NCBI GenBank assembly: GCA_024181965.1
Contig: BQXS01012484.1
Span: 1 to 36,226, forward strand
Reading direction: 5' to 3'
Length of the DNA: 36,226 bases
Source of the DNA: Aduncisulcus paluster
Taxonomy: Eukaryota; Fornicata
Position 1 is the first letter of the stretch; every line of letters begins with the position of its first letter. Of the stretch, positions 85 to 24,059 are shown piece by piece. Under the pieces are notes generated by a model. The model saw only the letters and a list, made by a program, of their open reading frames with translations. It did not search any database and was not told the origin of the DNA. The position numbers and the translations under genes were made by a program.

Positions 85-3000
85 ATGTCTCGACAATTAC
101 AAATTACCCCAACACATATTTTTCCTTGTGTCAAGATATCTCCATATATTGGAGTTGATGGTCAGATGGATAGAGAAATAGATTCTGGATGTGTTCTCAG
201 TGATAGTCAGAGAAAATTAGTTCAATTGAAAGGTTTTGATCGTTCTTATAAAGTTAGTTCCATTCAAACACCTGATATATCAAACAAAGACTTTTATCAA
301 CAAATTAATGCCACTAGCCTAATTGAAAGATTTTTTAAAGGTTATAGTGTAATATTTTCTGTTTTTGGGCCTCATTATACTGGAAAGTCTCATTTATTAG
401 GTTTTACTCATCCCAAATATGGGAAATATTATAGAAAAAAACGAATTCGTGTTGGTATCGAATGTGGATTTGTTGTTCGACTTATTGATGGGATAATTGC
501 AAAATTGGAACAAAAAGAGGATGCTATTCTTTCTAAGATAAGATCTACGCCATCGAGTTCAGTTTCTTCTCATCCCAAGACTTTCTCCGGGGCTGGACGG
601 TTATCAACCAGTTTATTTGAAGTATTTGATGATTGTGTGTTCTGCCATGATTCTGTTGAACCCAAAAAATATCTTCTCGCCGATATTAACGACAGTGGCT
701 TTCTTTTGAGACATCACTTTATCCCTGTCGAAACTCTTGACGCTGCAATCATCAGATACATTCCATTTTTCGAACAAAGAAGGAAACAAAGCACCATCAT
801 TCATTCCCAAACAAGACAATCTCACCTTGTATTTATCATCCGTCTCATCAGGAACGATCAATTCCCTGTATTTATGTATTTAACTGAATTTTGCGATTAT
901 ACCGACAAAAACAAGGGTGTTAAGACCTTTGTACGAAGCATGTACACTGAGAAGGCCAAGCTTGCGAATACCCTATGGCAGAGTCCTCTAACATCCCTCC
1001 TTGCTCGAGGTATCCTTCCTGCTTCTTCTCTAATCCCACACACTCCCCTAGATGCTGTTGCAATAGGCGAGGCTTCTTCTCGTATTTTCAGTCCCTCTAC
1101 TTCGACTTCCACGTCTGTTTTATCTGCTCACACCAAAGACACAGTATTCATTGTGCTTGTTGCGTGTCTTGGGATTGGACCAGAGCACAAACAATTAAAC
1201 AAAAAGGTTATGGTTCTTTTGAATGCTTTAAATGAGAAAAAGCTCTCGATCGATGAGAAAATCCTTCAAGCCTTACCTTCAATGGGTCGAGGCACGCCTG
1301 GATCTGCCCACACGCCCTCTCTCAAGACTCCGACTGCACGTACACCGACTATCAGAACGCCCTTGCATTCAGTTCACACAGCTCAACGTCCAGCTTCTTC
1401 CGTGAAGAAAGATCCTTCAACTCCTATTCTCAATGCTAGTTCAACCCTCTCCACACTCGATTCTGGGAGAGTAGATTCGCCTTCCAAGAGAAAAAGAAAT
1501 AAGCGAACAACTCCAAGATCAAAGAAAACTTTGTCACATAAGCCTGAAGAAGAAGAGATTCCTCACAACGCTTCCTCCAGAAGTGAAGTGGGTGGGGAAA
1601 TATTCGATTCTGATCTCCCAATGCATCCATTGTCTCCAGATCATCCATCCTCAAAGTTACTCAAATCTATTTTGGGATCTTCTCAAAATGATCATTCACC
1701 TTCTCGCAGCAAGTCTGCCATGCTCTCCTCCGTGTCTTCTTCTCTCATGAAAGGGATCAGTGGATCCCCTATAAAGAAAGGAAAGAAGGGTAAGAAAAGT
1801 CCCTCCTCTTCGACTGGTGAGGGAAAGTGGGGAAAGCTTAGATCCAGTCTGAGGAACAAGAAGAAAGGCTCTCCATCTCTTGTAACGAAGAAAGATCTCA
1901 GTGCAGGTGGAGACAATGGGACTAATGGTACCCATTCTGACCAGCAAACTCTCTTGTTGGTACAGTTAATGCAAGAGGTGAAATCTTTGAAACATCAAGT
2001 AGATCGTTCAAAAGAAGAAGAGAAAGAAGAGAAAGAGAAAGAGAAAGAGGAGAGTGCTCAAGTTGAGACTGTTTCTATTCAGGATAAACAACCTCAGCAA
2101 ACACTAGATGAAGATCAAATGAAGGAGATTGAAGATCAAATGAAGGAGATTGAAGATCTTAAAGCACAAATAATTCAACTCACTGAACGTGTTTCCTCCC
2201 TTGAAACTGAGAATTCTCTTCTTCGAGAAGATTGTTCAACCATTGATGACCTTCGTCTAAAATGTTCCAAGGCCGAAGACCATGTCTCTTCTCTAACCAT
2301 TGAACTTAGCTCCCGTGATCGTGAGTTGAGTTTGCTTAAATCTGAGCTTTCTACGTCCCAACACTCGCTCCAAACTTCCGACTCAACAATTCATACCCTT
2401 GAATCGACTCTACATTCATTAGAAACCAATATATCCGCCCTAACGTTGGCTAGAAATGCAATGGAATCAGAACGGGACTCTTCAAATCTCCGTGTTAAGG
2501 AAATTGAAGCAAGTTTATCTCAATATTCAACGGAATTAAATGCATCCAAGGATCTAGTAATACAACTTGAACGTGACATGAAGAGGTCCCAGTCAATAGT
2601 TGAACAGCAAAAAGAAGAATTGAAGACATTTGAATCCAGGATTGCCGAATTGAGAAAGAAGAATGATGAAATATTGAGGCAGGCGATTGAATCGGGGCGG
2701 ACAGATGAAAGACAGCGAGAGTTATTGAAAACACAGATTGAAGAAGAGTTTAGAGCTCAACGTGAAAAGGAAGAGGAGGAACGTAAAGCTCGTAAGTCCC
2801 AAGAAGAGGTGGAACGTGGACTGAGGATGGAAGTTGAAGATGCCGAGCGTCAGGCCAGGCGTGCGAAGGAGGACCAGGATCGCAAAGAGAGGTTAGAAAT
2901 CGAAGAGAATGAGCGTTTGTTGCGTGCTAAAAAGGAGACTGAGGAGCGTGAAAATCGCATGAGGGTCGAATTAGAAGAACGCCAAGCTCGGCATAAGAAA

Positions 3001-4449
3001 GAGGAGGAAGAGAGGGCTGCTTCTCTAGCTTTGGAAAAAGAGGAGAGCGATGATTTTTGTTCTGTTTCTGAAGATGGTGACTCTCTTGTACAGAAGAACA
3101 ATGCTCTTTCTGTTGAGCTTGAGCAGCTTCGTGTTTCTCTTGGTCGGGATTCACGATCCTTGGAACGTTCGAAGGAACAGTTTGAAGTGTCTAAGAAGAA
3201 CTTTGAGAAAGCTAAACAAGCCTTTGAAAAAGAAGTAACCTCCTCAACTGAACTTTTGGACCGAGAGAAAGAGAAATTATCGTTGGAAAAGGAAAATCTA
3301 AGCAAGGATTTGGAACAGTTCTCTTACTCTAAACGAACATTTGAGGATGAGAAGAGATCCTTCAATTCATCTCAACTGGCCGATTCACGAAGAATGAAAG
3401 AAAAGGAAAGTGAAATGGAAGACAGAGAAAGGTTGATTTCTTCAAAAGAACAAAGTATTGTCGATAAAGAGAAGGAAATTGTTGAACAAATGGAAGAACT
3501 CGCAGATAAAACTCGTGAACTCCAAGACAGGGAAAAGGCTCTTGCCGAAAGGTCCCATGAACTTGATGAAAAGGAGAAGGAGCTTATTGACAGAGAAGAA
3601 ACCAAAGAATTGGAATATAAGCGCCTTGAAGAAGAGTATCAGGCCGCACAGATGAAAGAGAAGACTGCCAACAAGGATTTCATATCAGATCTTCAATCTC
3701 AATTGGGAGATCTTAAGAATGCTCAAAGAAACATGTTAACCAACCTAGGATTTGTCCTTGACATGCCTGTAGATACCATCGCTGCTGTCCCAAGCTCCGT
3801 GAGGGCAGAGCTCGATCGGAGAGTGCAGAGTGCAATCGAGGAGGAACAGATGCGTAAAAGCAGAGTGTTTGAAGCTAGTAGTGCTGCCTGTTCTGTTGAT
3901 GCGCGCTCAGAGGAACCTCACAGTTCTGACTCGACATTTGCTCCCGAGGGTCAGGATCAACAACATATTATTTCGGCACTTCGACATGAGAGAGACATGT
4001 TATTTGAGCGATTCTCCATGTTAGTGCAGAGTCTAAAGTCTAAACATTCCCATGAAAAATTAGGCGGCCCGATCCTTCCTTCTTCCCCTCAATATCGCAT
4101 GTCTTTCGATTCTCCTGTTTCTTCTGGCCACTCCCCTGTGCATTCCAGTCGTAGGTCTTCAATCATCTCAACAGTATCACCCGGATCTTCTCGTCTTTCG
4201 AATGCTTCTTCTGCCTCCACTGTGTTTTACACTGATACTTTCTATGGAAAGAAGAAACAAATTGATGTCACGGATCTCCTTGCAAAATATCTCTCTCAGA
4301 AAGAGAGTATTGAGGTTATGGAGAAGGAGATTGAAGAGTTGACCAGTGCATTGTCAAAGATGAGACAAATGTATGGAAGTTTGATGGAAATGCAGGTTTG
4401 TGGTATCAAAAAGAAAAAGAAATTTGGAAGGGCATTCCATTGGATATGA
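85..4449 (+). CDS. Divergent kinesin-like protein with long coiled-coil stalk
   Basis: A 1454-residue protein. Residues about 12-390 follow the order of a kinesin motor domain. GPHYTGKS (95-102) stands where the P-loop GQTGSGKT should be, SLFEVFDD (176-183) matches the S-x-x-E-I/V-Y segment, and QTRQSHLVFII (242-252) matches the switch I SSRSH region. VLVACLGIGPE (357-367) followed by a helix matches the end of the motor. The switch II DLAGSE is not recognisable: the aligned stretch is LTEFCDYT (266-273). A Ser/Thr/Pro- and Lys-rich linker (about 400-615) leads into a long, highly charged coiled coil (about 618-1240), a second Ser-rich stretch and a short C-terminal coiled coil (about 1395-1440). 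A 21-base unit is tandemly repeated at 2110-2151 and duplicates one heptad. Family membership is inferred from motif order; loss of switch II suggests weak or no motor activity. It could instead be a structural microtubule-associated protein descended from a kinesin. The ATG at 85 places the first motor strand directly after it. Confidence 0.62.
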   Translation: MSRQLQITPTHIFPCVKISPYIGVDGQMDREIDSGCVLSDSQRKLVQLKGFDRSYKVSSIQTPDISNKDFYQQINATSLIERFFKGYSVIFSVFGPHYTGKSHLLGFTHPKYGKYYRKKRIRVGIECGFVVRLIDGIIAKLEQKEDAILSKIRSTPSSSVSSHPKTFSGAGRLSTSLFEVFDDCVFCHDSVEPKKYLLADINDSGFLLRHHFIPVETLDAAIIRYIPFFEQRRKQSTIIHSQTRQSHLVFIIRLIRNDQFPVFMYLTEFCDYTDKNKGVKTFVRSMYTEKAKLANTLWQSPLTSLLARGILPASSLIPHTPLDAVAIGEASSRIFSPSTSTSTSVLSAHTKDTVFIVLVACLGIGPEHKQLNKKVMVLLNALNEKKLSIDEKILQALPSMGRGTPGSAHTPSLKTPTARTPTIRTPLHSVHTAQRPASSVKKDPSTPILNASSTLSTLDSGRVDSPSKRKRNKRTTPRSKKTLSHKPEEEEIPHNASSRSEVGGEIFDSDLPMHPLSPDHPSSKLLKSILGSSQNDHSPSRSKSAMLSSVSSSLMKGISGSPIKKGKKGKKSPSSSTGEGKWGKLRSSLRNKKKGSPSLVTKKDLSAGGDNGTNGTHSDQQTLLLVQLMQEVKSLKHQVDRSKEEEKEEKEKEKEESAQVETVSIQDKQPQQTLDEDQMKEIEDQMKEIEDLKAQIIQLTERVSSLETENSLLREDCSTIDDLRLKCSKAEDHVSSLTIELSSRDRELSLLKSELSTSQHSLQTSDSTIHTLESTLHSLETNISALTLARNAMESERDSSNLRVKEIEASLSQYSTELNASKDLVIQLERDMKRSQSIVEQQKEELKTFESRIAELRKKNDEILRQAIESGRTDERQRELLKTQIEEEFRAQREKEEEERKARKSQEEVERGLRMEVEDAERQARRAKEDQDRKERLEIEENERLLRAKKETEERENRMRVELEERQARHKKEEEERAASLALEKEESDDFCSVSEDGDSLVQKNNALSVELEQLRVSLGRDSRSLERSKEQFEVSKKNFEKAKQAFEKEVTSSTELLDREKEKLSLEKENLSKDLEQFSYSKRTFEDEKRSFNSSQLADSRRMKEKESEMEDRERLISSKEQSIVDKEKEIVEQMEELADKTRELQDREKALAERSHELDEKEKELIDREETKELEYKRLEEEYQAAQMKEKTANKDFISDLQSQLGDLKNAQRNMLTNLGFVLDMPVDTIAAVPSSVRAELDRRVQSAIEEEQMRKSRVFEASSAACSVDARSEEPHSSDSTFAPEGQDQQHIISALRHERDMLFERFSMLVQSLKSKHSHEKLGGPILPSSPQYRMSFDSPVSSGHSPVHSSRRSSIISTVSPGSSRLSNASSASTVFYTDTFYGKKKQIDVTDLLAKYLSQKESIEVMEKEIEELTSALSKMRQMYGSLMEMQVCGIKKKKKFGRAFHWI

Positions 4450-8662: not shown

Positions 8663-9121
8663 CTAGAAGCTAAACCCATATGGTAGCAGGTCTTTAACTG
8701 ACATAACTGCAACATCACCCCTTGTATTCGCCAATATAATGGTGGTAGATTCATCGGCAAATTCAGATATAACCTGTCGACATGCTCCACATGGACTCAC
8801 TGGTCCCTTCGTATCAGCAATCACAGCAATAGTTTTGATCTTTTTCATGCCATGGGAAACGGCTGAGAAAATGGCAGTTCTCTCAGCACAGTTCGAAAGA
8901 CCATATGAAGCATTTTCGACATTACATCCTTCAAATATGTCTCCAGTTTCAGTTTCTACACAAGCTCCAACAGAAAAATGACTGTATGGACAGTAAGCTT
9001 TCTTGCTTGCGGCCAGGGCTTTATCCAAGAGAGATTTTTCGTGAGAAGAAATAATTGGACATGGATCGAATGGTGATTTTTCGATTAAACTTTTTTTAAT
9101 GGGTAAATTTATAATTTTCAT
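8663..9121 (-). CDS. Cytidine deaminase (tetrameric type)
   Basis: A 152-residue enzyme of pyrimidine salvage that hydrolyses cytidine or deoxycytidine to uridine or deoxyuridine. The catalytic centre is complete: CAE (78-80) gives the first zinc cysteine and the proton-shuttling glutamate, and PCGAC (110-114) gives the other two zinc cysteines. FEGCNVENASYG (63-74) is the conserved substrate-binding segment. Length and the three-cysteine zinc site fit the small homotetrameric class. The ATG at 9121-9119 is followed by a ~25-residue leader before the family's usual start. The stop is TAG. The first 55 codons and ~275 bases of upstream DNA are duplicated further upstream (see repeats at 9084-10320). 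Confidence 0.95.
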   Translation of the reverse strand: MKIINLPIKKSLIEKSPFDPCPIISSHEKSLLDKALAASKKAYCPYSHFSVGACVETETGDIFEGCNVENASYGLSNCAERTAIFSAVSHGMKKIKTIAVIADTKGPVSPCGACRQVISEFADESTTIILANTRGDVAVMSVKDLLPYGFSF

Positions 9122-10320
9122 AACACAATCACAAGGATCAGATTGTTAATTTAGCAAATATGACGCGACCAAATTGGAAAAAAAATACTCAAGATTAGTA
9201 TTATGGAATAACAACAATTAATACTCGGGATAAACAAATGTACTCTCGAATTATTTTAAGTTTTCAAACTTTATACATCAAAATAATTGATATATAAAGA
9301 TCATGATAAAAAAAAATGACTTCATTTGGATAGAATTCGAAAACAAAAATATAAAATTGATATTTCAATTAAAATGCAAAATTAATCATTTTTTAGATGG
9401 GTAAATTTATAATTTTCATAACACAATCACAAGGATCAGATTGTTAATTTAGCAAATATGACGCGACCAAATTGGAAAAAAAATACTCAAGATTAGTATT
9501 ATGGAATAACAACAATTAATACTCGGGATAAACAAATGTACTCTCGAATTATTTTAAGTTTTCAAACTTTATACATCAAAATAATTGATATATAAAGATC
9601 ATGATAAAAAAAAATGACTTCATTTGGATAGAATTCGAAAACAAAAATATAAAATTGATATTTCATTAAACTTTTTTTAATGGGTAAATTTATAATTTTC
9701 ATAACACAATCACAAGGATCAGATTGTTAATTTAGCAAATATGACGCGACCAAATTGGAAAAAAAATACTCAAGATTAGTATTATGGAATAACAACAATT
9801 AATACTCGGGATAAACAAATGTACTCTCGAATTATTTTAAGTTTTCAAACTTTATACATCAAAATAATTGATATATTTTCTACACAAGCTCCAACAGAAA
9901 AATGACTGTATGGACAGTAAGCTTTCTTGCTTGCGGCCAGGGCTTTATCCAAGAGAGATTTTTCGTGAGAAGAAATAATTGGACATGGATCGAATGGTGA
10001 TTTTTCGATTAAACTTTTTTTAATGGGTAAATTTATAATTTTCATAACACAATCACAAGGATCAGATTGTTAATTTAGCAAATATGACGCGACCAAATTG
10101 GAAAAAAAATACTCAAGATTAGTATTATGGAATAACAACAATTAATACTCGGGATAAACAAATGTACTCTCGAATTATTTTAAGTTTTCAAACTTTATAC
10201 ATCAAAATAATTGATATATAAAGATCATGATAAAAAAAAATGACTTCATTTGGATAGAATTCGAAAACAAAAATATAAAATTGATATTTCAATTAAAATG
10301 CAAAATTAATCATTTTTTAG
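9084..10320. repeat. Nested exact duplications of the cytidine deaminase 5' region
   Basis: Four head-to-tail copies share the deaminase start codon region and upstream DNA. R1 is 9084-9396 (native). R2 is 9397-9664, matching R1 at an offset of 298. R3 is 9665-9876, offset 581. R4 is 9877-10320, offset 924 and reaching back to 8953, inside the coding region. The copies look base-for-base identical, although they are mostly non-coding. The R1/R2 junction lies in a shared T-rich stretch and the R2/R3 junction in a shared ATTAAA; R3/R4 shows almost no homology. Unique DNA resumes at about 10323. Either very recent tandem duplication or misassembly could produce this. Confidence 0.9.
9845..10045 (-). 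pseudogene. Truncated cytidine deaminase copy
   Basis: This carries the deaminase start and its first 55 codons unchanged (to GACVE), then runs into duplicated non-coding DNA and stops after ten unrelated residues. Both zinc-binding motifs are missing, so any product would be inactive. It is the coding part of repeat copy R4 and keeps the native upstream sequence, so it could be transcribed. Confidence 0.85.
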
Positions 10321-13480: not shown

Positions 13481-15676
13481 ATGAAATATTATATATGTTT
13501 TTTGTTATCATTTCTTCTTACTTTTTGTACTTCTTTCTCTTTTTCCTCCTTTTCTGTTGATCTTGTTGAAAGAGTCTTGCCTGCAATTTCAGTAGTTTCC
13601 ATGGAAAATATGAATGATACGATGAATACATGTATTCATTTAGCTGTTTACAGGTTGGAACAGTGCTTACCTGATTTTTCCCCCTCTTATGGTGAGTCTC
13701 CAATCCAACAGCTTAAGAAGAAACAATTAGCGCTCGATTTTTATAATTGTTTTCTTATTGAACATAATCAAGACCCCATAGCATGTTCTCTATTTGATTT
13801 TGGAGATTCTTCATTTTCTGATATTTCTAATTTTGATTCTCTCTCGCCAATCATGAATATTCCAGCTGAATCTGTATATTGTTCCAATTTCAATGCCATA
13901 GAAAAATCGCCTATTGATCAAACTCGTTGTTTTAACATGATTTTGAACTCTCGTGATAGTGATGTGTATAAACGATATTTGAATGATGTAGAGGAAATAT
14001 GGGATAAAATAATGATAGAAAAGGCTAATGAGAAATTTCAAGCATTAATTTATGAGTTATCTCGCCAATCTGTTTCTCTTAATTCATCCATGACCGATCT
14101 TTCTGATGAAGTCCGCACCCAATCAGATCTAATCAAATTATCAACTGCCGATTTAAAGTCTGAGTTTGGTGATCTTGTTGCTTTATTTAACGATGGATCG
14201 ACCGCATTTATGCTTGCGATGTCATCGTTCTTCTCTGAATTTCAGACCTCAGCCACCCAAATACAAGCGAATGTGGAACAAACCTTGAAAGTAACCGAAG
14301 AAGCACTTGCAAAGCAGGATGATGCGATGCGATTGTCACAGGAACAATCGGATCAACTTGATAGTCTTTCGAAGCACTCCACCTCCATGCTTGGTTCCAT
14401 CTCTGAAGATCTTGGCGACATTCACTCATTCACCGCTGATACAGTGAGCAATGTGAATGAAATGTATCTTAAGATTATTGAAAACCGTGATCTCTCGAAA
14501 AGAGAATCCGAGGCAATCGAGACTTTGCTTACCGAGATGCACAACGAAGTGAGTTCAGTTCCTCAACTTCTTGCTGATATACATGCCAATAGCACTTCCA
14601 GCAATGTATTTTTTGAATATGTTAAAGTTTTTGGATTGTACCTTGGACTTGTTTTCTCTCTTCGAATCTTATTTTTCTCATTCGCCATCCCTTTTGTTGC
14701 CATTCCATCGACAATATCGTTTATAATATGTTTTTGTGTTGAAATTTATCTTATAAAACTTCGATTTCGACCCTCTTCTCCTCCTCCTCTTGTTTTTATC
14801 ATGGATTATTTCGACAATGAATTCCTTCATGGTATCATTGATAGAGTATTTAACTATATCACCGTTAACTATGTTCTTGTGTCATCCTTGATTCGATGTT
14901 CATACATAATATTCTGCATATTTTGTAGCCTTTCTAGGCACCGTTACATTGTCGCGCAGAATGGTGCTGTTAATGAGATTAATAATGAGAGATGGCAACG
15001 TCTAGAAGAGTCCATTATGCTGTTAAGTGAAAGTATAAGTTTAACAAGTGGAGTCGCGAGCAGTTTCCGTGAAGACAAAGTTGAGTCTCATTCTTCCTCT
15101 CTTCCGCTCGAAAAGGAGGGAAAACATGATAACACAAGTGGTATTGTTGGCAATAGTTTGGGTATTATTCAAAAAGATGGTGATAGCAAACCTGAGACTT
15201 TTGCAATAGATCTTCCTAAATCCCCTGAAGTGGAAGTGTTCATTCCGCGAGATGATGATACCTTAGCTTCAACAGTTCAAGATAAGATGGTTTCAGATCC
15301 GTATGACATAATTAGAGAGAAAAAGACCCTTGAAACAATGGAGATACATGGTGATTTGATAGATGATCTCAAACAGGAGGAAGAGGTGAATAGGTCAGTG
15401 GTTCACATCAAGGGATCTGGAGCAAGAAAGGGCATTGGAGGACAGCATAGTCGAAATCGTTCAAGGAGGGCAGGATTTTTGGCAAAAAAAATTAAGTCTG
15501 GACTGAGTACAAAATCCTCAATGGAAAACCCTTGTGTGCTGAAAGAGAAAGAAAGTGAGGGGGTTGATGAAATTATTGGGAAAAGGAGAAAGAAAGGTGT
15601 GTTTTCATCTGATCTTCCAAAAAAACAACACAGTACTGTCAAAATAGAAAACAAAGAGGAGGAGAAACAAAAGTGA
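13481..15676 (+). CDS. Kar5/GEX1/Brambleberry-like nuclear fusion protein
   Basis: A 731-residue membrane protein. Residues 1-25 form a hydrophobic signal peptide. A cysteine-rich domain follows (C51, C62, C90, C102, C134, C150) with the family pattern: CIHLAVYRLEQCLPDF, then LALDFYNCFLIEHNQDPIAC, then a cysteine followed by VYKRYLNDVEEIWDKI. Next comes a long predicted coiled coil (about 180-370), hydrophobic spans (about 378-427) and another (about 455-485), and a polar, basic tail (490-731). This order of signal peptide, Cys-rich domain, coiled coil and C-terminal spans is that of the Kar5 (yeast), GEX1 (plants, algae, protists) and Brambleberry (fish) family. These proteins act in the nuclear envelope during fusion of gamete nuclei. 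The cysteine spacing and architecture are seen; the function is inferred. The long basic tail is unusual. The alternative is an unrelated ER coiled-coil protein. Confidence 0.68.
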   Translation: MKYYICFLLSFLLTFCTSFSFSSFSVDLVERVLPAISVVSMENMNDTMNTCIHLAVYRLEQCLPDFSPSYGESPIQQLKKKQLALDFYNCFLIEHNQDPIACSLFDFGDSSFSDISNFDSLSPIMNIPAESVYCSNFNAIEKSPIDQTRCFNMILNSRDSDVYKRYLNDVEEIWDKIMIEKANEKFQALIYELSRQSVSLNSSMTDLSDEVRTQSDLIKLSTADLKSEFGDLVALFNDGSTAFMLAMSSFFSEFQTSATQIQANVEQTLKVTEEALAKQDDAMRLSQEQSDQLDSLSKHSTSMLGSISEDLGDIHSFTADTVSNVNEMYLKIIENRDLSKRESEAIETLLTEMHNEVSSVPQLLADIHANSTSSNVFFEYVKVFGLYLGLVFSLRILFFSFAIPFVAIPSTISFIICFCVEIYLIKLRFRPSSPPPLVFIMDYFDNEFLHGIIDRVFNYITVNYVLVSSLIRCSYIIFCIFCSLSRHRYIVAQNGAVNEINNERWQRLEESIMLLSESISLTSGVASSFREDKVESHSSSLPLEKEGKHDNTSGIVGNSLGIIQKDGDSKPETFAIDLPKSPEVEVFIPRDDDTLASTVQDKMVSDPYDIIREKKTLETMEIHGDLIDDLKQEEEVNRSVVHIKGSGARKGIGGQHSRNRSRRAGFLAKKIKSGLSTKSSMENPCVLKEKESEGVDEIIGKRRKKGVFSSDLPKKQHSTVKIENKEEEKQK

Positions 15677-20642: not shown

Positions 20643-22646
20643 ATGGGGAGTATTTCTAGCTCTGCCAATTCTGCCAATGATAGCTCTCCTAATGGTTGTG
20701 AGTTAAAGAAGCCGGTAGAATCAGATCCCAAAGTCTTTTGTAAGAAGGAAAAGAAGAAAGTCTCTCGTCCTATTCTTCAATCTATAAATATGACATTGAG
20801 AAACAGTGAGAATGTCTGTGTTCTTGGTGCTGTGGGGAGTGGAAAGAGTAGTTTGATTAATTTGATTCTTGGAGAAATGACCATAAAACCGAGTAGAGTC
20901 TCTGAAGAAATTGCTCCATCCATATCTAAGGCTCTTGTTACTCTAAACGGATCTGTGGCTATCAGTACTCAACGGTCGTATGTTCTCAATGCCACTTTGC
21001 GGGATAATATCCTATTTGGTGCCCCATATGATCATGAACGTTATCTTCATACTCTGGTTGCGTGTTGTCTCGTGTCAGATCTTGTCCAGCTTAAGAATGG
21101 AGATATGACAGAAATAGGAGAAAAGGGAATGACTCTGAGTGGGGGTCAGAAAGCCAGGGTTTGTCTTGCAAGGGCTGTCTATAGCGGTGCTGATATCCTC
21201 CTTCTCGATGATCCCTTGAGTGCTGTCGATGCTCACGTTGCGCGTAGACTCATGAAACGTCTCATAGCCAGACGTAGAGTAGATTCTGACACCCTTGAAG
21301 AGGACTTTATCGACGGTGAAGACACTCCTGGTCTCCCTCCTTCTCTTATTCCTTCCACTTCCATTGTTGTGATGCCCACTCACCAGTACCAGTTTGTTGA
21401 CATGTTCGACTCTGTTGTCATTCTTCGTGATGGTCAATGTGTGTTCCATGGGAGTGTCGGTGATGTGAGAACTCTCTGTGAATCTTCTTGTTCCTCGAGT
21501 GGTGACGCTGAAGAGGAAGAATGTTGTCAGGGGGAAGATGATCGTATCGATTATATTCAATCGTGTCTTGGAATAGGACTCGAAGAAGAGGTTTGTGTTG
21601 ACCAGCCTGGTTTACGAGAGGAAGAGGAAGAGGAAGAGGAAGAGGAAGAGGAAGAGCAGTCGATGTCTTCAAAGGTTATTGAAGCGCGCCATTCTCCAAT
21701 GTCTATATCAGTCATTTCAATGACAGATGATGACGAGACAACAATTGAGTCTGAGCAAGACTCTCGTGGGGATGTGATAAAGTCAGGCAAAGCATTGAGA
21801 CGTGATATGAAAGCTACATCGCCTCTTCATGCGTCACAGGGTGATCTGTGTCCTCCATCGTCCTCTGCTTCCTCCTTGTCATCCAGCTCTAGTCGTCTAT
21901 GTCTCCACACTGCTGACATTGCCAACTATTGGAGTGAATATGATCGTCTCAAGGATCTCCTCTTCCCTCAAAAAGGAGATCATCTCAAATCTGAGTCCAT
22001 TGAAGAGTCTGAGGATTCTTTTGATGTGGAGGAAATTAGACCTTCAAAGACAAACATTACTAAGAACAAACTTATATCTGACAAGATACAAGAAAAAGAA
22101 GAAGAAGAAGAAGAAGAAGAAGAGGAAGAGGAAGAGCAGTCGATGTCTTCAAAGGTTATTGAAGCGCGCCATTCTCCAATGTCTATATCAGTCATTTCAA
22201 TGACAGATGATGACGAGACAACAATTGAGTCTGAGCAAGACTCTCGTGGGGATGTGATAAAGTCAGGCAAAGCATTGAGACGTGATATGAAAGCTACATC
22301 GCCTCTTCATGCGTCACAGGGTGATCTGTGTCCTCCATCGTCCTCTGCTTCCTCCTTGTCATCCAGCTCTAGTCGTCTATGTCTCCACACTGCTGACATT
22401 GCCAACTATTGGAGTGAATATGATCGTCTCAAGGATCTCCTCTTCCCTCAAAAAGGAGATCATCTCAAATCTGAGTCCATTGAAGAGTCTGAGGATTCTT
22501 TTGATGTGGAGGAAATTAGACCTTCAAAGACAAACATTACTAAGAACAAACTTATATCTGACAAGATACAAGAAAAAGAAGAAGAAGAAGAAGAAGAAGA
22601 AGAGGAAAGAGGAGAAACTCGGATTCAATGTCATAAAGTGGATTGA
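20643..22646 (+). CDS. ABCC transporter, middle part: NBD1 and acidic linker
   Basis: Walker A GAVGSGKSS (20826-20852), Q-loop region AISTQRSYVLNATLRDNILFG, signature LSGGQKAR (21135-21158), Walker B with DDPLSAVDA (from 21192) and the H-loop MPTHQ form a complete NBD1. The residue after the Walker B aspartate is another Asp, not Glu, as in most ABCC first domains, so this site is probably the low-activity one. The ATG at 20643 is internal: the same frame is open upstream and joins the basic linker of TMD1. After NBD1 come a Glu tract and two copies of a ~160-residue acidic, Ser-rich unit, then the exit peptide RGETRIQCHKVD. A stop at 22644-22646 arises where repeat copy 3 is joined on. The same exit peptide continues into TMD2 at 24026, showing where the real gene goes. 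Confidence 0.85.
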   Translation: MGSISSSANSANDSSPNGCELKKPVESDPKVFCKKEKKKVSRPILQSINMTLRNSENVCVLGAVGSGKSSLINLILGEMTIKPSRVSEEIAPSISKALVTLNGSVAISTQRSYVLNATLRDNILFGAPYDHERYLHTLVACCLVSDLVQLKNGDMTEIGEKGMTLSGGQKARVCLARAVYSGADILLLDDPLSAVDAHVARRLMKRLIARRRVDSDTLEEDFIDGEDTPGLPPSLIPSTSIVVMPTHQYQFVDMFDSVVILRDGQCVFHGSVGDVRTLCESSCSSSGDAEEEECCQGEDDRIDYIQSCLGIGLEEEVCVDQPGLREEEEEEEEEEEEEQSMSSKVIEARHSPMSISVISMTDDDETTIESEQDSRGDVIKSGKALRRDMKATSPLHASQGDLCPPSSSASSLSSSSSRLCLHTADIANYWSEYDRLKDLLFPQKGDHLKSESIEESEDSFDVEEIRPSKTNITKNKLISDKIQEKEEEEEEEEEEEEEQSMSSKVIEARHSPMSISVISMTDDDETTIESEQDSRGDVIKSGKALRRDMKATSPLHASQGDLCPPSSSASSLSSSSSRLCLHTADIANYWSEYDRLKDLLFPQKGDHLKSESIEESEDSFDVEEIRPSKTNITKNKLISDKIQEKEEEEEEEEEERGETRIQCHKVD

Positions 22647-24059
22647 AGCGCGCCATTCTCCAATGTCTATATCAGTCATTTCAATGACAGATGATGACGA
22701 GACAACAATTGAGTCTGAGCAAGACTCTCGTGGGGATGTGATAAAGTCAGGCAAAGCATTGAGACGTGATATGAAAGCTACATCGCCTCTTCATGCGTCA
22801 CAGGGTGATCTGTGTCCTCCATCGTCCTCTGCTTCCTCCTTGTCATCCAGCTCTAGTCGTCTATGTCTCCACACTGCTGACATTGCCAACTATTGGAGTG
22901 AATATGATCGTCTCAAGGATCTCCTCTTCCCTCAAAAAGGAGATCATCTCAAATCTGAGTCCATTGAAGAGTCTGAGGATTCTTTTGATGTGGAGGAAAT
23001 TAGACCTTCAAAGACAAACATTACTAAGAACAAACTTATATCTGACAAGATACAAGAAAAAGAAGAAGAAGAAGAGGAAGAGCAGTCGATGTCTTCAAAG
23101 GTTATTGAAGCGCGCCATTCTCCAATGTCTATATCAGTCATTTCAATGACAGATGATGACGAGACAACAATTGAGTCTGAGCAAGACTCTCGTGGGGATG
23201 TGATAAAGTCAGGCAAAGCATTGAGACGTGATATGAAAGCTACATCGCCTCTTCATGCGTCACAGGGTGATCTGTGTCCTCCATCGTCCTCTGCTTCCTC
23301 CTTGTCATCCAGCTCTAGTCGTCTATGTCTCCACACTGCTGACATTGCCAACTATTGGAGTGAATATGATCGTCTCAAGGATCTCCTCTTCCCTCAAAAA
23401 GGAGATCATCTCAAATCTGAGTCCATTGAAGAGTCTGAGGATTCTTTTGATGTGGAGGAAATTAGACCTTCAAAGACAAACATTACTAAGAACAAACTTA
23501 TATCTGACAAGATACAAGAAAAAGAAGAAGAAGAAGAGGAAGAGGAAGAGGAAGAGGAAGAGCAGTCGATGTCTTCAAAGGTTATTGAAGCGCGCCATTC
23601 TCCAATGTCTATATCAGTCATTTCAATGACAGATGATGACGAGACAACAATTGAGTCTGAGCAAGACTCTCGTGGGGATGTGATAAAGTCAGGCAAAGCA
23701 TTGAGACGTGATATGAAAGCTACATCGCCTCTTCATGCGTCACAGGGTGATCTGTGTCCTCCATCGTCCTCTGCTTCCTCCTTGTCATCCAGCTCTAGTC
23801 GTCTATGTCTCCACACTGCTGACATTGCCAACTATTGGAGTGAATATGATCGTCTCAAGGATCTCCTCTTCCCTCAAAAAGGAGATCATCTCAAATCTGA
23901 GTCCATTGAAGAGTCTGAGGATTCTTTTGATGTGGAGGAAATTAGACCTTCAAAGACAAACATTACTAAGAACAAACTTATATCTGACAAGATACAAGAA
24001 AGAAGAAGAAGAAGAAGAAGAAGAAGAGGAAAGAGGAGAAACTCGGATTCAATGTCATA
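21617..24059 (+). repeat. Five tandem ~480-bp units encoding the ABCC linker
   Basis: Units begin (at GAAGCGCGCC) at 21681, 22161, 22645, 23107 and 23587; spacings are 480, 484, 462 and 480. They appear identical except for the number of GAA/GAG codons between them. Copies 1-2 read in one frame and copies 3-5 in another. Between copies 2 and 3 lies the sequence that normally leaves the array (AAACTCGGATTCAATGTC...), so the array is two blocks joined at GGATTG. Copy 5 lacks two A residues in its exit (GAAAGAAG instead of GAAAAAGAAG), which shifts the frame before TMD2. The encoded unit is Ser-, Asp- and Glu-rich with basic-Ser sites such as RRDMKATS. Confidence 0.92.

Follow-up and report, generated by a model that had tools for sequence, protein, structure and literature searches.

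The stretch of DNA analysed here, which we call the window, is a single 36-kb contig (C294; 36,226 nucleotides) from an assembly whose 397 contigs total 7,088,625 bases. Its gene content is eukaryotic, and includes a TTL-type tubulin ligase, ZPR1, an IQ-motif kinase, an Arf-type GTPase, an ABC transporter and an MFS transporter. The window also contains two tandem repeats. One has a 298-bp unit (9084-9876; 2.7 copies, 96% match), starts within the 5' end of a cytidine deaminase gene and extends into an intergenic stretch, while the other has a 480-bp unit (21617-24037; 5.1 copies, 96% match) and lies inside the ABC-transporter gene, the halves of which flank the array in several frames. Near the start of the window, at 85-4449, a 1454-aa ORF has a P-loop-like GPHYTGKSHLLG near its N-terminus and a long coiled coil. 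Its similarity to the kinesin KIF4 is very weak (E 0.63), and it is possibly a degenerate kinesin. The gene with which we are concerned here had been read in an earlier note as a candidate karyogamy protein of the Kar5/GEX1/Brambleberry family, and it is composed of the following features:

13481..15676, + strand: candidate karyogamy gene, stop included; 731 codons in one open frame
13481..13555, + strand: signal-peptide-like N-terminus, residues 1-25 (hydropathy; hydrophobic at 3-24, one basic residue)
13613..14005, + strand: N-terminal cysteine domain, residues 45-175 (Cys 51, 62, 90, 102, 134 and 150; Trp 174)
14006..14605, + strand: helical region without cysteines, probably a coiled coil, residues 176-375 (AlphaFold2, hydropathy; net charge -18)
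14606..14767, + strand: long hydrophobic segment, residues 376-429, probably two spans (hydropathy)
14864..14935, + strand: hydrophobic segment, residues 462-485, probably a third span (hydropathy)
14951..15673, + strand: C-terminal tail of 241 residues, 491-731 (near neutral overall, with 40 K+R and 43 D+E)
15398..15610, + strand: basic stretch within the tail, residues 640-710 (KRRKK at 701-705; 18 K+R, 6 D+E)

The gene at 13481-15676 is real. Its 731-aa ORF (13481-15676, forward strand) starts at the first ATG in an open frame that spans 741 codons in all, compared with a longest open frame of 150 codons in 500 shuffles of the local 3.2 kb of DNA. No second copy was found in its own genome. 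The database prediction for the same gene is 691 aa long, and judging by this length its start would be Met41. The choice of start codon bears on the signal peptide that had been proposed for this protein: in the 731-aa version residues 3-24 are hydrophobic and the proposal holds on hydropathy, the method on which this call is based, but the signal-like start depends on the start codon, because translation from Met41 would remove these residues.

Cysteines occur in the candidate at residues 6 and 16 (both in the signal region), 51, 62, 90, 102, 134 and 150, with the next one only at residue 417. The six that follow the signal region are spaced 11-28-12-32-16. In plant GEX1 the spacing is 12-20-13-9-23 in all 120 sequences among the matches listed, and in yeast Kar5 the conserved cysteines C56, C68, C91, C105, C116 and C141 give 12-23-14-11-25 (PMC4291462). 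The same source states that all six cysteines of the Kar5 family are conserved in every orthologue (PMC4291462). The suggestion that the six cysteines of the candidate are spaced as in this family is therefore not confirmed as a whole: it holds for the first three intervals, where the first four cysteines are in a family-like register (11-28-12 vs 12-20-13 in plants and 12-23-14 in Kar5), but not for the last two, where the fifth and sixth are out of register (32-16 vs 9-23 and 11-25). If C150 is instead counted as the fifth cysteine, the last two intervals become 48-24 and W174 stands at the expected sixth position. When cysteines are placed at random, six luminal ones come to lie inside 100 residues in 0.8% of cases, and a four-cysteine register like that of the family arises by chance in about 2.2%, a figure for which the tolerances were chosen after inspecting the sequence. 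We also compared the general layout of the protein with a set of 85 ORFs, each 250 aa or longer and taken from six-frame translations of the window, L001-L006 and L008-L027; the candidate itself belongs to this set. Five of the 85 share the coarse arrangement of a signal-like start, a long part free of membrane segments and a later membrane segment, and one of these five is HAP2, while the candidate alone has all of its ectodomain cysteines near the N-terminus.

The region after the cysteine domain, residues 176-375, has no cysteine and one proline. The long coiled coil that had been proposed here is helical in both of our AlphaFold2 runs, but its heptad-like hydrophobic periodicity is weak. 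When residues 26-521 were modelled alone the prediction was all helical, with a mean pLDDT of 39.5 and a pTM of 0.22, and with 72 plant GEX1 sequences aligned these values were 64.5 and 0.26, with residues 160-200, 208-334 and 340-428 helical. In the latter model the pLDDT was about 75-77 in the third-cysteine helix, 57-64 in the first-cysteine helix and 76-88 over residues 226-295, but stayed under 50 in the insert that separates the fourth aligned cysteine from the fifth. The gain obtained with the plant sequences would be expected if they were related to the candidate, but it is no proof of relationship, and the model of the cysteine domain is of low to medium confidence. The membrane spans expected toward the C-terminus are borne out by the hydrophobic segments at residues 376-429, which has room for two, and 462-485. 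The tail of about 240 residues that follows had been described as basic, which does not fit the whole of residues 491-731, as it has slightly fewer basic than acidic residues and is basic only at 640-710. The further suggestion that the tail may contact chromatin stems solely from the basic residues of that part.

Searches for relatives of the 731-aa protein did not identify a family. In Pfam nothing scored below E 0.024, and that match was to an unrelated coiled-coil model; in NCBIfam no score came near any cut-off, and the sequence search against the PDB returned no family. A search of roughly 5.8 billion proteins with the whole protein yielded, at E<=10, its own prediction and nothing else (7993 candidates scored), and a query with residues 46-178 likewise returned the own prediction alone (25 candidates scored); this search needs shared exact words, and distant relatives may escape it. 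The Pfam Tht1 profile (PF04163), which had been proposed as a test over residues 45-200, gave no match there and was absent among the matches to the candidate at E<=10. This result is uninformative, because the same profile also missed all nine plant GEX1 proteins tried at E<=10 (9 of the 120 sequences). It found nothing in the candidate's own genome and likewise nothing in 14 control genomes. No members of the Kar5/GEX1 family were found in the PDB by sequence; one search gave a single match, to a phosphate-binding protein at E 0.19, and in another the matches were mostly coiled coils.

To compare the candidate with GEX1 directly, we assembled a set of plant proteins using as query what we take to be the Arabidopsis GEX1 sequence. 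Of the 670 candidates in this search, 215 reached E<=0.01, and 120 of these make up the matches listed. Those that carry a name are flowering-plant proteins by that name, many of them labelled GAMETE EXPRESSED 1; three are nameless. The resulting profiles are built from flowering-plant sequences only and are a weak instrument at such a distance. The full-length HMM (HMMER) aligned to the coiled coil of the candidate only. The cysteine-domain HMM scored 1.6 bits on the whole candidate and 4.7 bits over residues 41-215, the latter score being beaten by at least 10 of 500 cysteine-preserving and 8 of 500 plain shuffles. In a gapped profile alignment with CRD and TM modules, the candidate was at background among the 85 ORFs. 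Finally, hhalign aligned the whole protein through its coiled coil at a P of 0.075; P was 0.5 when residues 1-215 were used, 0.45 with the membrane part and 0.69 for a coiled-coil ORF used as a control. The match to known GEX1 sequences that the earlier note had proposed to look for is thus non-significant by HMMER, gapped profile and hhalign alike.

The third-cysteine segment QQLKKKQLALDFYNCF aligns gap-free with plant eEKRsRfAWHLSDCF, and the same segment, which we had picked by eye, was the best (non-significant) one that hhalign found in residues 1-215. When four ungapped plant blocks were chained, the candidate scored 58.5 and ranked first of the 85 ORFs (next 50.0). Plain shuffles averaged 21.2 (sd 8.7) and reached this score in 1 of 2000 cases, and cysteine-preserving shuffles averaged 22.8 (sd 8.8) and reached it in 2 of 2000; the block boundaries were set after seeing the candidate, which makes this test partly post hoc. 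In the best chain two of the four blocks were at their expected place, the first block beginning five residues before C51 and the fourth-cysteine block falling on C134. When eight neutral sets of blocks were used instead, the candidate's score was reached by 8-313 of 1000 plain and 8-320 of 1000 cysteine-preserving shuffles (0.8-32%) and by 1-11 of the other 84 ORFs; in two of the eight sets it was equalled by the reversed sequence. Three blocks fixed by eye had an identity of 22%, against 5.6% when shuffled and reached in none of 2000 shuffles, a comparison biased by the choice of register. The membrane module gave no signal against the plant GEX1 blocks, with 705 of 2000 class-preserving shuffles reaching its score. 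In a MAFFT alignment with 28 plant GEX1 proteins, C51 and C90 were the only cysteines to face plant cysteines, and C51, A55, L59, A84, C90 and F91 fell in invariant columns; over the full length, this forced alignment gave 19-23% identity. Taken together, the sequence case for membership of the Kar5/GEX1 family is suggestive, and it is not proof.

The genomic setting provides evidence of another kind. HAP2, SPO11, MND1 and HOP2 had been predicted to occur in the same genome, and all four are present, with their domains recovered on translated ORFs. HAP2 is unmistakable by sequence (Pfam E 1.6e-89 in the genome search and 5.8e-89 on the ORF), and its best PDB match is 5ow4 ('Uncharacterized protein'; 209.7 bits), followed by 5ow3, Protein HAPLESS 2. 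The HAP2 gene itself (L001 1-3135, - strand) encodes a tail of more than 400 residues, rich in basic residues and serine, after a predicted span at 544-576. The predicted SPO11 has TP6A_N and Spo11-type Toprim domains and matches 8urq (Meiosis-specific protein SPO11) in the PDB at E 6.1e-11, with topoisomerase VI subunit A a better match at 3.4e-18. MND1 has the Mnd1 HTH and LZ3wCH domains, and HOP2 has the TBPIP winged helix. The G+C content of these four loci is 34-39%, and that of the window is 37%. DMC1, which had been expected alongside them, did not turn up in canonical RAD51/DMC1 form in this genome. The Rad51 profile gave two weak Rad51-like matches, the better of which was nearest to RadB/RadA models and to RecA, RadA and XRCC3 chains. 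The HORMA profile found nothing in this genome, and nothing in the control genomes either. Such absences mean little, because the assembly is incomplete: ribosomal protein uL3 was not found in it, though it was found in 14 of 14 control genomes. Judged by their domains, the genes recovered show that the assembly carries part of the toolkit for sex, whatever the candidate gene is, and HAP2, SPO11, HOP2 and MND1 together support a sexual cycle independently of it.

On the contig that holds the SPO11 gene (C351), about 7.7 kb from it, lies a gene for a protein of [FeFe]-hydrogenase fold (L028 1144-2898, + strand), presumably of the Nar1 type. We considered it as a sign of an anaerobe and rejected this, as it scores far under the hydrogenase cut-offs; with these scores and its Nar1-type look, it is silent on lifestyle.

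Considering these results together, we lean towards the view that the 731-aa protein is a divergent karyogamy protein of the Kar5/GEX1/Brambleberry type, located in the nuclear envelope or ER. Its layout, the partial cysteine register, the third-cysteine segment, the block-chain score, the rise in pLDDT with plant sequences, the single copy found in the genome and the presence of sex genes in the assembly are what we count for this reading. A serious though less probable explanation is that it is a lineage-specific coiled-coil membrane protein of the ER or nuclear envelope, acting as a tether or LINC-like link, and that its likeness to Kar5 and GEX1 arose by convergence. The searches, in which no family or plant GEX1 profile matched significantly, favour it, as do the weak results with neutral block sets and the recurrence of the coarse layout in five of 85 ORFs. 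Convergence accounts less readily for the family-like register of the first four cysteines, the cysteine-free coiled coil, the segment of the third-cysteine helix and the three spans, and in a genome with sex genes a karyogamy protein is to be expected.

We regard it as improbable that the protein belongs to the plasma membrane or flagellar surface, as a helper in adhesion or cell fusion comparable to PRM1, its cysteine-rich head carried by a coiled-coil stalk. A signal peptide, a disulfide-rich head, a stalk and a membrane anchor would also fit this arrangement, the N-glycosylation sequons at residues 45, 201 and 370 are compatible with it, and location is not readable from sequence. However, three spans and a long tail with KRRKK fit the nuclear envelope at least as well, and the protein matches no Pfam family. 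As for the karyogamy reading that we prefer, we decided against filing the candidate as a confirmed GEX1, because the six-cysteine feature, supposedly universal, breaks down at the fifth and sixth cysteines, and no similarity search was significant. A more specific version is unlikely in our view, namely that this is a working Kar5/GEX1 karyogamy protein that lacks the canonical sixth cysteine, with Trp in its place and a compensating Cys in a lineage-specific insert, and has a long nucleoplasmic tail that is basic in part, in a lineage of protists without a recorded sexual cycle.

If the candidate is a Kar5/GEX1-type karyogamy protein, we infer its location, topology and function from the literature on that family. 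The signal peptide would direct the N-terminus into the lumen of the ER or the perinuclear space, where the disulfide-bonded cysteine domain and the coiled coil would sit. These luminal parts might link a copy of the protein in the outer nuclear membrane to one in the inner, or copies in two nuclei that lie against each other, while the three C-terminal spans would anchor it and leave the long tail on the cytoplasmic or nucleoplasmic side. In the zygote, the protein would then couple the nuclear membranes and aid their fusion. A similar arrangement has been modelled for Kar5, in which copies bridge the outer and inner membranes, perhaps via disulfides, and the effect of losing the first coiled coil was interpreted as a block to inner-membrane fusion (PMC4291462). 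All domains of Kar5 and its conserved cysteines were reported in that study to be essential for nuclear fusion (PMC4291462). If our reading is correct, the need for all six cysteines becomes questionable.

It would also extend the family to a lineage whose divergence puts it beyond the reach of the profiles tried here, and would suggest that reported absences of GEX1 may be failures of detection. For example, in Naegleria HAP2 and a set of meiosis genes were found and GEX1 was not recovered (PMC9928731), a result that fits either a divergent GEX1 that is easily missed or a GEX1 that can be absent. The earlier note had seen in the candidate a strong genomic hint of sex should the organism belong to a group regarded as asexual. 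This was overstated, as HAP2 together with SPO11, HOP2 and MND1 in one protist assembly is the firmer point, and a similar case is already in print. Hap2 and Gex1 have been reported from metamonads in which a sexual process was never directly observed (Salas-Leiva et al. 2021, PMC8516963), and their joint presence was taken there as strong evidence for a capacity for sexual reproduction in Carpediemonas membranifera (PMC8516963). Since this pair in protists never seen to mate has been published, our candidate, even if correctly read, would be a further and unusually divergent case.

Among the known systems, the candidate can be compared most closely with GEX1. As described for the GEX1 proteins of plants, Chlamydomonas and Plasmodium, it has, in this order, a signal-like start, an N-terminal cysteine domain, a probable coiled coil and probably three C-terminal spans (PMC7586128), and Arabidopsis GEX1, also with three spans, is required for gamete nuclear fusion (PMC7586128). 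Unlike plant GEX1, it has about 39 inserted residues after the fourth aligned cysteine and before the fifth, an extra Cys134, Trp174 at the place of the expected sixth cysteine and a much longer C-terminal tail. With yeast Kar5/Tht1 (PF04163) it shares six cysteines near the N-terminus, a probable coiled coil and predicted C-terminal spans, a comparison made by published cysteine positions only, but Kar5 has two spans and a lumenal end (PMC4291462). Zebrafish Brambleberry, compared by its description, similarly has a cysteine domain, a coiled coil and C-terminal spans, though two in number (PMC10609895), and in this respect the probable three spans of the candidate are like those of GEX1 rather than those of Kar5 and Brambleberry (PMC7586128, PMC10609895). 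At the level of the genome, the nearest parallel is with the metamonads of Salas-Leiva et al. 2021, again compared by description, as in both cases a protist genome contains HAP2 together with a GEX1 candidate (PMC8516963).
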